Source of the DNA: Acidimicrobiales bacterium
GTDB lineage: Bacteria > Actinomycetota > Acidimicrobiia > Acidimicrobiales > Aldehydirespiratoraceae
DNA length: 64,000 nt
Direction: 5' to 3'
Assembly (NCBI GenBank): GCA_040219515.1
Contig: JAVJSI010000011.1
Span: 1-64,000 of the forward strand
Shown here: piece by piece, positions 31,255-34,308 of the stretch
Position numbering within the stretch: the stretch's first letter is position 1
Layout of the letters: the number at the start of each line of letters is the position of its first letter
Program-made: the position numbers and the translations under genes
Notes under the pieces: generated by a model
Database searches by the model: none
What the model was told of the DNA's origin: nothing
The model's input: the letters and a program-made list of their open reading frames with translations, nothing else

Positions 31255-31761
31255 ATGGCCGGGGTCCTCGTTCTCAATGCGACGTTCGAGCCCCTTGCCG
31301 TCGTCCCCACCCGCCGAGCGATCTGCCTGATCCTGGCCGAGAAGGTGGAGATGCTCGAGCACTCGGGACGCCTTGTCCGTTCGGAACGACTGTCCGTCGA
31401 CGAACCGTCGGTCGTGCGGCTCAGCCGCTACGTCCACGTGCCCTATCCCACGCACCGCTCGCCCAATCGGCGGGGTGTGCTGGCCCGAGATGCGCACCAG
31501 TGTCAGTACTGCGGTGGTCTCGCCGAGACGATCGACCACGTCGTGCCGCGGAGCCGTGGTGGCGGCCACACCTGGGACAATGTCGTCGCCGCGTGCCGTC
31601 GCTGCAACGGCGGCAAGCGCGATCGCCTGGTCGGTGAGACGACCATGCGGCTTGCTCGTCCCCCGGGCCCGCCGCCGCCGAGCACGTGGATCGAGGTCGC
31701 GGCCGGGTCGGTTCCCCACACGTGGACGCCCTACCTCACTGCGGATCGCCGCAGCGCGTGA
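31255..31761 (+). CDS. HNH endonuclease-family protein
   Basis: A 168-aa HNH nuclease-like protein of a type widely kept as a single chromosomal copy in actinobacteria. CQYCGG and CRRCNGGKR form the zinc-binding knuckles around IDHVVPRSRGG, which holds the catalytic His, and the Asn follows in WDNVVAAC. An N-terminal ~75-residue region (VLVLNATFEPLAVV...) is characteristic of this subgroup. Its biological target is unknown. The lipoate-ligase-like gene overlaps its stop (GTGA). Confidence 0.85.
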   Translation: MAGVLVLNATFEPLAVVPTRRAICLILAEKVEMLEHSGRLVRSERLSVDEPSVVRLSRYVHVPYPTHRSPNRRGVLARDAHQCQYCGGLAETIDHVVPRSRGGGHTWDNVVAACRRCNGGKRDRLVGETTMRLARPPGPPPPSTWIEVAAGSVPHTWTPYLTADRRSA

Positions 31762-32674: not shown

Positions 32675-33124
32675 ATGGCGGGAAACGCACGCTTCGTGGG
32701 AAACTTCGAGCACACGCTCGACGACAAGGGCCGGCTCATCCTCCCGTCCTCCTTTCGGGCGAAGCTGGCCGAGGGTGCGATCGTCACGGCGCTCGACCGC
32801 TGTCTGGCGATCCTTCCGGTCGAGGAATTCGACCGGATGGCCGACGCGCTCGAAGCGCGGGTGTCGGCCGGCGAGGTCGAGATGAATGCCCTTCGCGTGT
32901 TCTCGAGCAACGCCGACGAGGTCGTGCCGGACTCGCAGGGGCGAGTGCGCCTGCTTCCTCATCTTCGCGAGGCAGCCGGCCTCGACCGGGCAGTGGTCGT
33001 CACCGGTGTGCTGCGCCGCATCGAAGTGTGGGATCCCGAGCGCTGGGCGAACGTGTCGCCCGCCGGCTCCGAGAAGTTGGCCGACGCCATCGAGCGTGGC
33101 CACGGTGCGGCGGCTCGCACATGA
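32675..33124 (+). CDS. mraZ: Transcriptional regulator MraZ
   Basis: MraZ represses the dcw cluster by binding repeats in its own promoter. The 149-aa protein shows both SpoVT/AbrB-like halves with the signature DxxGR-x-P: LDDKGRLILPSSFR (about 15-28) and DSQGRVRLLPHLREAAGL (about 86-103). Length is normal. GGAAGGGGG precedes the ATG. It opens the cell-wall and division cluster and is separated from rsmH by a 173-nt region holding a strong RNA structure. Confidence 0.95.
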   Translation: MAGNARFVGNFEHTLDDKGRLILPSSFRAKLAEGAIVTALDRCLAILPVEEFDRMADALEARVSAGEVEMNALRVFSSNADEVVPDSQGRVRLLPHLREAAGLDRAVVVTGVLRRIEVWDPERWANVSPAGSEKLADAIERGHGAAART

Positions 33125-33189
33125 ACCGTCGCTCACCCATCGATGAAAGGAGCGTGCCGGGCCTCCAGGTCTGACCTTTGACGACTCGA

Positions 33190-33301
33190 TCATCTGCAGT
33201 CTTCCGACCGACAAATGGAAGACCCGTACTCCGCCCGCTTGCCATTAGTCCGACCGGGGAGAAATCCCGGCGGACGCCGTCGGTCGGGAGACTGCAGATG
33301 A
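33190..33301 (+). promoter_or_regulatory. Structured leader of rsmH (mraW RNA-like), start-site-sequestering stem
   Basis: The arms 33190-33212 and 33279-33301 form 23 consecutive base pairs, 22 Watson-Crick and one U-G. The right arm contains the GGGAG ribosome-binding site (33286-33290) and the rsmH ATG (33298-33300), so the closed stem would hide both. Inside are AATGG/CCATT (33214-33218 with 33242-33246), and GTCCG/CGGAC (33248-33252 with 33271-33275) topped by a GGGA-GAAA-TCCC tetraloop hairpin, making a three-way junction. A cis-acting mraW RNA motif upstream of mraW (rsmH) has been described in actinobacteria; identity with it is inferred from location. Confidence 0.65.
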
Positions 33302-34308
33302 CCGATGTCGACTCTTCAGTCGACCTCGACGGCGTTGGCGATTTTCTCATGTCCGACACGCCCACCGACGACCCCGCAGCGGGTTTCGCGCACGATCCGG
33401 TCATGCGGGCCGAGGTCGTCGCCGTGCTCGCCGATGTACCCGACGGGGTCGTCGTCGACGCCACCCTCGGTGGTGCGGGCCACGCACTCTCGCTTCTCGG
33501 CGCCAACGACGGCATCTCGCTGATCGGTCTCGATCAGGACCAGATGGCGCTCGACGCCGCCGGTACCCGGCTCGCTCCCCATGGCGACCGGGTCACTCTC
33601 CACCACCGACGATTCGATGCCATCACCGAGGTGGTCCGATCGCTCGGTGTCGATCACCTGTCGGGATGTCTGTTCGACCTCGGCGTCTCGTCGCCGCAGC
33701 TCGACACCGCCGATCGCGGATTCAGCTTCCGTCACAGCGGGCCACTCGACATGCGAATGGACCAGCGGAGTGCGACGACAGCGGACGAACTCGTCAACAC
33801 ACTCGACGAAGGCGCCCTCGCGTCGCTGCTGCGCCGCCACGGCGACGAGCCGCACGCCCGCCGTATCGCTCGCGCCATCGTGGCCGCCCGGCCGATCGTC
33901 ACGACCGCCGAGCTCGCCGATGTCATTCGCGAGGCGGTCCCCGCCGCGGTTCGCCGCAAGGGCGGGCACCCCGCCCGTCGCAGCTTCCAGGCGATTCGCA
34001 TCGAGGTGAATCAGGAGCTCGAGATCCTCGACGATGCCATCCGCCAGGCGATCGAACTGCTCGCCCCCGAAGGCCGATGTGCCGTCCTCGCGTACCACTC
34101 GGGCGAGGACCGGATCGTCAAGCATCGCTTCCGCGATGCGGCAGGGGAGAGGCCCCCGCCCCGTCACGATCTGCCGCATCCGCCCGGCTACGTGGCCGAG
34201 GTCCGACTGCTCTGGCGGGGCGCCCGCAAGCCGTCGGCCGAGGAAATCGCTCGCAATCCGCGCGCCGAAGCCGCTCGCTTCCGCGCCGTCGAGAAGCTGG
34301 CCGCCTGA
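33298..34308 (+). CDS. rsmH: 16S rRNA (cytosine1402-N4)-methyltransferase
   Basis: RsmH (MraW) methylates C1402 of 16S rRNA with S-adenosylmethionine. The 336-aa protein has the SAM loop VVDATLGGAGHALSLL, GLDQDQMAL, the signature FDLGVSSPQLD and GFSFR...LDMRMD, and the C-terminal VLAYHSGEDRIVKHRFR. The start at 33298 is supported by GGGAG 7 nt upstream; an ATG at 33349 has no such site and would remove 17 residues. The first codons also form a tight hairpin (33308-33323, TCGACT-CTTC-AGTCGA). The next ATG shares one base with its stop. Confidence 0.93.
   Translation: MTDVDSSVDLDGVGDFLMSDTPTDDPAAGFAHDPVMRAEVVAVLADVPDGVVVDATLGGAGHALSLLGANDGISLIGLDQDQMALDAAGTRLAPHGDRVTLHHRRFDAITEVVRSLGVDHLSGCLFDLGVSSPQLDTADRGFSFRHSGPLDMRMDQRSATTADELVNTLDEGALASLLRRHGDEPHARRIARAIVAARPIVTTAELADVIREAVPAAVRRKGGHPARRSFQAIRIEVNQELEILDDAIRQAIELLAPEGRCAVLAYHSGEDRIVKHRFRDAAGERPPPRHDLPHPPGYVAEVRLLWRGARKPSAEEIARNPRAEAARFRAVEKLAA

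Follow-up and report, generated by a model that had tools for sequence, protein, structure and literature searches.

The mraZ-rsmH locus

The stretch of DNA considered here (the window) spans 64,000 nucleotides of contig JAVJSI010000011.1 of an Acidimicrobiales bacterium. It carries mraZ and rsmH (mraW), with a leader RNA located between them (Table 1). Downstream of rsmH, at the position of ftsI, lies a gene for a penicillin-binding transpeptidase (PF00905, PF03717), for which no NCBIfam ftsI-type model scores above its cut-off, followed by murE (TIGR01085, 450.3 bits against a cut-off of 257.3). Upstream of the mraZ-rsmH cluster is a gene for an HNH endonuclease (31255-31761; PF14279, PF01844). 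The minus strand at 684-1041 encodes a bacterial class A RNase P RNA (245.5 bits), the sole match to an Rfam family above cut-off in the window.

Table 1. Genes and leader features of the locus. Unpaired probabilities were computed for the fold of the window; A4 and the short form are the sets of 100 and 28 leaders described in the text.
Feature	Positions	Strand	Basis or remark
mraZ, upstream gene	32675-33124	+	PF02381, E 9.5e-25; TIGR00242, 93.6 bits, slightly below its cut-off of 98.35
P1 left arm, 26 nt	33187-33212	+	pairs with 33279-33304; unbroken over 33190-33212; covariation in A4
P2 hairpin	33214-33246	+	stem 33214-33221 with 33238-33246; all 8 pairs with two-sided changes in A4
P2 loop core ACUCCGCCCG, putative conserved recognition loop	33228-33237	+	conservation in A4 and in the short form
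C in register with 16S C1402, candidate pseudo-substrate base	33234	+	invariant in 100/100 and 28/28 leaders; register from the 16S profile match
P3 hairpin with purine loop	33248-33275	+	10 of 11 pairs with two-sided changes in A4; usual in the order of the window, absent from the short form
P1 right arm	33279-33304	+	pairs with 33187-33212
GGGAG, Shine-Dalgarno sequence within P1	33286-33290	+	sequence (own 16S end GGATCACCTCC); mean unpaired probability 0.0005
ATG within P1, most likely start of rsmH	33298-33300	+	in frame with rsmH; mean unpaired probability 0.0005
rsmH (mraW), 16S rRNA (cytosine-1402-N4)-methyltransferase	33298-34308	+	TIGR00006, 286.7 bits (cut-off 154.3); PF01795, E 9.3e-100
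Small hairpin in the first rsmH codons	33308-33325	+	partial conservation, judged from the folds of six leaders of the genus
Alternative in-frame ATG	33349-33351	+	51 nt downstream of the P1 ATG; no visible Shine-Dalgarno sequence

A long stem over the translation start

The leader is organized around a long stem, P1, which in the window encloses the hairpins P2 and P3. Its unbroken 23 bp (33190-33212 with 33279-33301) include a single G.U pair (33203/33288), and when extended to 33186-33212 and 33279-33305 the arms show 93% complementarity over 27 nt. The fold of 33180-33330 has a computed energy of -82.7 kcal/mol, against -49.04 +/- 3.76 kcal/mol in 200 shuffled sequences, none of which equals it (z -8.95), and this confirms the unbroken 23-bp stem that an earlier sequence-only reading of this DNA had picked out. 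The same reading had placed a GGGAG and an ATG in the right arm, and both the sequence and the computed pairing bear this out: the two elements are almost never unpaired in the computed ensemble, and forcing 33283-33302 open is computed to cost about 32 kcal/mol. Matches of microRNA families to the long stem (mir-727 and mir-341; mir-4529 in locus L018) lie far below their cut-offs and were discarded as artefacts of the kind that any long hairpin yields.

A tight hairpin had further been proposed at 33308-33323, in the first codons of rsmH. It is present in the window, and its conservation is uneven among six leaders of the genus, the window included: one (L003) has a similar hairpin, two (L002, L004) a weaker one and two (L006, L178) a different one.

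Covariation and phyletic distribution

In a search for rsmH in 41 genomes, namely that of the window and 40 relatives, 38 gave matches and 30 loci were taken. Twenty-five of these entered a plain MAFFT alignment, A1; left out were L010, L015, L017 and L029, which are without the core, and the variant L030. The structure tested comprises 45 pairs drawn from the fold of the window (the 26 bp of P1, together with P2 and P3). In A1, 22 of the 45 pairs change on both sides and 92.1% of the cells are paired, and none of 500 shuffles does as well on any of the five measures used. A covariance model, R1, was used to search genomes of the order, the class and the phylum. In the order of the window, 199 of 298 genomes have a match (E up to 0.001), as do 132 of 198 in the class (E up to 0.01) and 17 of 296 in the phylum sample, the last made up of 10 from the order (the genome of the window included), 5 from the class and 2 others. 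Where a genome has a second match among the phylum and class matches listed, this is always the same site read on the opposite strand. The two others, weak matches in other classes (L099, L100), were rejected as false positives: they are simple long hairpins that lack the core, and no mraZ or rsmH match accompanies them in the loci examined.

From 124 loci with strong sense-strand R1 matches, 100 were brought together in a second alignment, A4. The 24 omitted belong mostly to families already represented; seven weaker class or phylum matches and one other were also excluded, and some loci (L022, L065, L071) were not among the candidates. In A4, which was fitted to the model and is hence biased toward it (A1 and A5 being plain MAFFT alignments), 42 of the 45 pairs show two-sided changes, including 24 of the 26 pairs of P1, in which 92.2% of the cells are paired. 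The covariation value of A4 is 0.485; shuffles give 0.211 and slid controls no more than 0.145, and no shuffle equals the observed value on any measure. The third alignment, A5, holds 28 leaders of a shorter form, picked by eye from the folds of 40 loci of the class; the 12 loci with a third hairpin (L214, L224 and L231-L240) were left out of it. Here, two-sided changes occur at 28 of 41 pairs, 84.5% of the cells are paired and no shuffle reaches the observed value, save 1 of 500 for further pair types. Covariation, the absence of which the sequence-only reading had named as evidence against a structured leader, is thus very strong in all three alignments. Together with the computed pairing, it supports the proposal of a structured RNA whose long stem conceals the Shine-Dalgarno sequence and start codon of rsmH. 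We regard it as nearly certain that the leader is a structured cis-acting RNA.

By the test used, rsmH lies downstream of 99 of the 100 A4 leaders, the exception being L131, in which the rsmH alignment begins inside P1, and mraZ lies upstream of all 100. In the class set of 40 leaders, rsmH is downstream in 40 and mraZ upstream in 36. Out of 80 labelled loci 33 were examined, and six of these carry the leader RNA; their labels are Acidimicrobiales (two), Actinomycetota (two), Ferrithrix thermotolerans (one) and Bifidobacterium breve (one, a metagenome bin with a doubtful label). A search for rsmH across the phylum matched 118 of 119 genomes and returned 30 loci, of which 28 were new and were read. 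The motif CUCCGCCC occurs in just two of them, L245 and L246, which are the two that carry the leader RNA; among the other 26 (three of the same order and 23 of other classes), three have looser C-rich matches (L252, L260, L264).

Among the loci read, the leader is missing where rsmH closely follows mraZ: in L010, L015, L017, L029, L242 and L243, the mraZ stop and the rsmH alignment are separated by 51, 50, 9, 3, 15 and 6 nt, respectively. This is as expected if the leader takes the place of simple coupling between the two genes. A counter-case is L244, from the same order, which has a gap of 164 nt and yet no core.

Two forms with a common loop

For P2, two-sided changes are seen outside the fitted alignment as well: in A5, which is a plain alignment, the corresponding helix has them at 9 of 14 pairs. 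The P2 loop is the most constant part of the RNA in sequence. Across the 100 leaders of A4, the bases at 33229-33236 are kept in 98, 98, 100, 100, 93, 100, 98 and 94, respectively; CCGCCC is kept in all 28 short-form leaders of A5, and CUCC[GA]CCC is found in 37 of the 40 class leaders from other orders. The mean unpaired probability of the loop in the window is 0.79, with lower values at 33232 (0.45) and 33233 (0.12), where a two-pair helix forms with 33225-33226. RNAalifold applied to A1 recovers P1 and P3 and draws P2 otherwise, with three invariant GGA/UCC pairs that use the UCC of the loop.

The P3 loop reads GGGGAGAAAUCCC in the window and GGGGAGACAUCCC, GGGGACAAAUCCC or other sequences in relatives; hence, the GAAA tetraloop described from the sequence is one register of a purine loop, and a GNRA loop is not conserved among the relatives. 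The three-way junction, which had been likened to a sensor, is usual in the order of the window. However, judging from the folds, 28 of the 40 leaders from other orders of the class have P1 and P2 without P3. Therefore, the three-way junction is not the common core of this RNA, and what the two forms share is P1 and the P2 loop ACUCCGCCCG. A joining stretch, CCAGCGC, occurs on the 3' side of P2, between it and P1, in 20 of the 28 short-form leaders by our own count in A5. We also considered a kissing interaction in which CUCC of the P2 loop would pair with GGAG of the P3 loop, and do not claim it: the P2 loop hardly varies, so no covariation is measurable, and P3 is absent from the short form.

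The start codon of rsmH

Start codons were classified in 99 of the A4 leaders (L131 being excluded, as its rsmH alignment starts inside P1). At the place in P1 occupied by the ATG of the window, 78 of the 99 have a start codon: 49 are in frame with rsmH (43 ATG and 6 GTG) and 29 are in another frame. The remaining 21 have none at this place; their likely start lies downstream and is partly open, with a median computed openness of 0.40 in the 19 that have such a start. Thus, concealment of the start by P1 is the rule without being universal. In the short form, an in-frame start is found in P1 in 26 of the 28 leaders; it precedes the conserved protein start by about 9-54 nt in 25 of them and by about 171 nt in the other. 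In several families, for example those of L078, L102, L105 and L116, the P1 start is the only start codon ahead of the conserved part of RsmH. Initiation at the P1 ATG is thus well supported. In the window, this ATG has a good Shine-Dalgarno sequence, and the one at 33349 has none that is visible.

In 11 of the 29 leaders with an out-of-frame start, a count for which no null was computed, the frame runs up to a possible rsmH start, its end falling 1 nt after or 2 nt before the first base of that codon; this is a usual sign of translational coupling. In ten loci (L016, L021, L063, L069, L090, L101, L113, L138, L147 and L160), the P1 start opens a short frame ending at a possible rsmH start, a layout that resembles a leader-peptide arrangement instead of a direct start. 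One relative, L027, is unusual in having about 700 nt between the leader and rsmH (812-1500), made up, by eye, of repeated units of the type GTGCTCAGTCTCCCGAACG.

Likeness of the P2 loop to the target site of RsmH

RsmH is described as methylating C1402, within the stretch C1400-G1405 of 16S rRNA (PMC5053481). In the genome of the window, the 16S rRNA around C1402 reads ACACACCGCCCGTCAC, and the P2 loop ACUCCGCCCG agrees with the 16S segment ACACCGCCCG at 9 of 10 positions, an alignment that puts the invariant C33234 in register with C1402. Profiles of the loop made from A4 and from A5 both find their best match at the C1402 segment when run over the 16S rRNA and a 4.6-kb stretch with the 23S rRNA, scoring 12.2 bits against 8.0 for the next best in one alignment and 13.6 against 7.8 in the other. 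Profiles with permuted columns reach the observed score over C1402 in 62 of 20000, 187 of 50000 and 124 of 50000 cases (about 0.003), in a test with a single target, which was set by the known function of the gene but conceived after the loop had been seen. With a longer window of the profile (positions 41-53), 280 of 20000 permuted profiles do so.

Several comparisons temper this likeness, which is a statistical one only. The segment around C1402 is rich in C, and as many as 2407 of 20000 profiles with permuted columns (12%) also place it first in the 16S rRNA, so that the top rank alone is weak evidence. With the profile of the whole P2 hairpin (positions 28-60), the C1402 register ranks only 18th, and when whole leader interiors are matched to the 16S rRNA without gaps, the best match includes C1402 for only 8 of 100 leaders. 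Untargeted scans of the 16S rRNA with 12-mer profiles give, for the C1402 site, p of about 0.02 at best in A4, which is about what chance would yield given the number of windows, and 0.11 in A5. Moreover, when 66-nt stretches are drawn at random from the window, about 3% contain a 10-mer that matches the C1402 segment at 9 of 10 bases.

Two further resemblances to 16S rRNA were set aside. The P3 profile (model positions 65-86) has its top match at the A1492 region, with 25 of 20000 permutations reaching its score, as though P3 mimicked the 3' strand of helix 44; we do not claim this, as shorter P3 profiles give 370 and 475 of 20000 and score higher elsewhere, and P3 is absent from the short form. 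A stretch of the short form, GGUGCCAGC, resembles the 16S rRNA at 1095 (12-mer scans, p about 0.02) and is treated as chance.

The human enzyme METTL15 is homologous to RsmH. It is the mitochondrial enzyme for the matching site in 12S rRNA, and it is reported to bind short helix 44 RNAs at 0.8-2.3 uM and to bind polyA as well (PMC10828496). E. coli RsmH, for its part, is reported to require the 30S subunit and not protein-free 16S rRNA (PMC5053481). The binding of helix 44 RNAs by METTL15 speaks for the proposed mimicry; its non-specific RNA binding and the requirement of E. coli RsmH count against mimicry by sequence. The likeness of the loop to the C1402 site would point to RsmH or to the decoding centre, rather than to a metabolite, as what the loop is read by.

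A possible autogenous switch

On balance, the reading that we favor, to which we give a probability of about 0.4, is that the leader is an off-switch for translation by which RsmH represses its own gene, the RNA mimicking the substrate of the enzyme. The parts of this reading differ in strength. Direct control of initiation by P1 is probable, judging from the pairing of the Shine-Dalgarno sequence and start codon. That the ligand is RsmH itself, or another factor reading the C1402 region, is a tentative suggestion that draws on the loop. More specifically, the likeness of the loop to the 16S site suggests that RsmH may control its own production, and the most explicit version, in which it would do so by binding, and perhaps methylating, C33234 as a mimic of C1402, is doubtful as things stand.

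In the proposed mechanism, the cis-acting leader would by default keep the translation of rsmH off, the Shine-Dalgarno sequence and start being paired in P1. The P2 loop ACUCCGCCCG would mimic the surroundings of C1402 on the 5' strand at the top of 16S helix 44, such that free RsmH could bind the loop, lock the closed fold and repress its own translation. Unmethylated 30S subunits would draw RsmH away, upon which the RNA would be opened, or P1 would fail to close, and rsmH would be translated. Given the computed cost of opening, P1 cannot be expected to open unaided; therefore, timing during transcription, a helicase or RNase III would have to take part. The UCC of the loop paired with the GGA of P2 in the RNAalifold structure speaks against this reading, as do the 21 of 99 leaders whose P1 has no start codon at the usual place and the 26 phylum-search rsmH loci without this RNA, of which only three have the core, in looser form.

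Among the alternatives, two are about equally improbable. The first dispenses with a ligand: the leader would sense ribosome methylation, a start hidden in a stem being translated well only by ribosomes methylated by RsmH, with P1 reporting their state. It draws on the concealment of the Shine-Dalgarno sequence and start by P1 and on a 2026 preprint according to which MraW-modified ribosomes of B. subtilis favor mRNAs with stem-loops over the early codons or start (PMC13317604). However, this would leave the invariant P2 loop unexplained and would mean positive feedback; P1 is also far too stable for passive opening. The second keeps a ligand and replaces RsmH with another reader of the decoding-centre strand, such as an initiation or assembly factor, RsmI or some C-rich-binding protein. 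RsmI, too, has C1402 as its target (PMC5053481), and the P2 loop is C-rich in both halves, whereas the position of the examined leaders ahead of rsmH favors self-control.

A small-molecule riboswitch, as the sequence-only reading had proposed, with P2 and P3 forming an aptamer for, say, SAM or a wall precursor, is somewhat less probable than either of these. The three-way junction with conserved loops in the order of the window speaks for it, but the aptamer core is not kept over the class: P3 is absent from 28 of the 40 leaders of other orders while P1 and the P2 loop persist, and a lone C-rich hairpin loop would, in our judgement, make a poor aptamer. Further, no Rfam riboswitch family matches the leader. 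Least likely of all is that P1 serves mainly as a processing site for RNase III, for which about 26 bp of highly paired stem is enough, or as an insulator between mraZ and rsmH: the 21 leaders without a start codon in P1 would suit it, but it leaves unexplained the invariant loop and the usual presence of the Shine-Dalgarno sequence and start codon in the stem.

Autogenous repression by RsmH, if true, would explain how the level of this enzyme is set and would couple the maturation of the ribosome to the division and cell-wall operon, with the expression of rsmH, the transpeptidase gene and murE linked to the amount of unmethylated 30S subunits. Apart from mechanism, what is new is a widespread and strongly covarying leader RNA, absent from Rfam 15, that precedes a highly conserved rRNA-modification gene, together with a concrete candidate for its ligand.

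Comparison with known systems

A comparable case is the ermC methylase, an rRNA methyltransferase said to repress its own message because the latter resembles the rRNA target of the enzyme. It differs from the present case in being a resistance gene with a target in 23S rRNA and with additional control by a leader peptide, whereas RsmH is a housekeeping enzyme. Closer to RsmH itself are the cmpA and isp mRNAs of B. subtilis, in which, similarly, a stem-loop over the start or early codons is tied to RsmH activity (PMC13317604). These are other genes, and the available text of that source yields no likeness to C1402; the terms 'autoregul', 'feedback', 'leader' and 'own mRNA' are likewise absent from it. 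In the open-licence literature searched, we found no report of the present RNA or of self-control by RsmH, which is weak evidence of absence.

In architecture, the nearest parallel is with the autogenous leaders of ribosomal proteins, such as those of S15, in which a structured leader likewise takes in the ribosome-binding site, and for which several unrelated RNA designs, each bound by the product of the gene itself, are described across phyla (PMC4137082). In contrast, the gene here encodes an rRNA methyltransferase, and the binding of RsmH is only proposed.

In position, the counterpart is mraW RNA (RF01746), described as a structured leader upstream of mraW/rsmH in Actinobacteria with unknown function (Weinberg 2010, PMC2864571; PMC5640933). 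The sequence-only reading had taken the present leader for an example of this motif, an assignment that does not hold. The RF01746 model gives no match to the leader of the window at its gathering cut-off (50 bits) or at any E-value up to 10, and none to five other leaders like that of the window. Among the genomes of the order, 59 were searched with it; none has a match above cut-off and 14 have weak ones, that of the window's own genome lying on another contig (strict filters). The same model finds Mycolicibacterium (66.5 bits), scores 34.3 bits, below cut-off, in Streptomyces griseus and passes the cut-off in 11 of 246 genomes of the phylum sample. No family of Rfam 15 matches the leader of the window or the relatives tried. 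The hairpins and loops also differ: mraW RNA is one long hairpin with the loop ACUUCCCC, whereas here P1 encloses P2 (and P3), with the loop ACUCCGCCCG. The mraW RNA loop CUUCCCC (L040, L044 and L046-L049) is complementary to GGGGAAG, a sequence close to GGGGUGAAG, which belongs to the 3' strand of 16S helix 44; this may be chance. The two RNAs thus share a place and not a model; if the proposed self-control by RsmH is true, it would hint at a possible role for the orphan mraW RNA of other Actinobacteria, which might then have met the same need independently.
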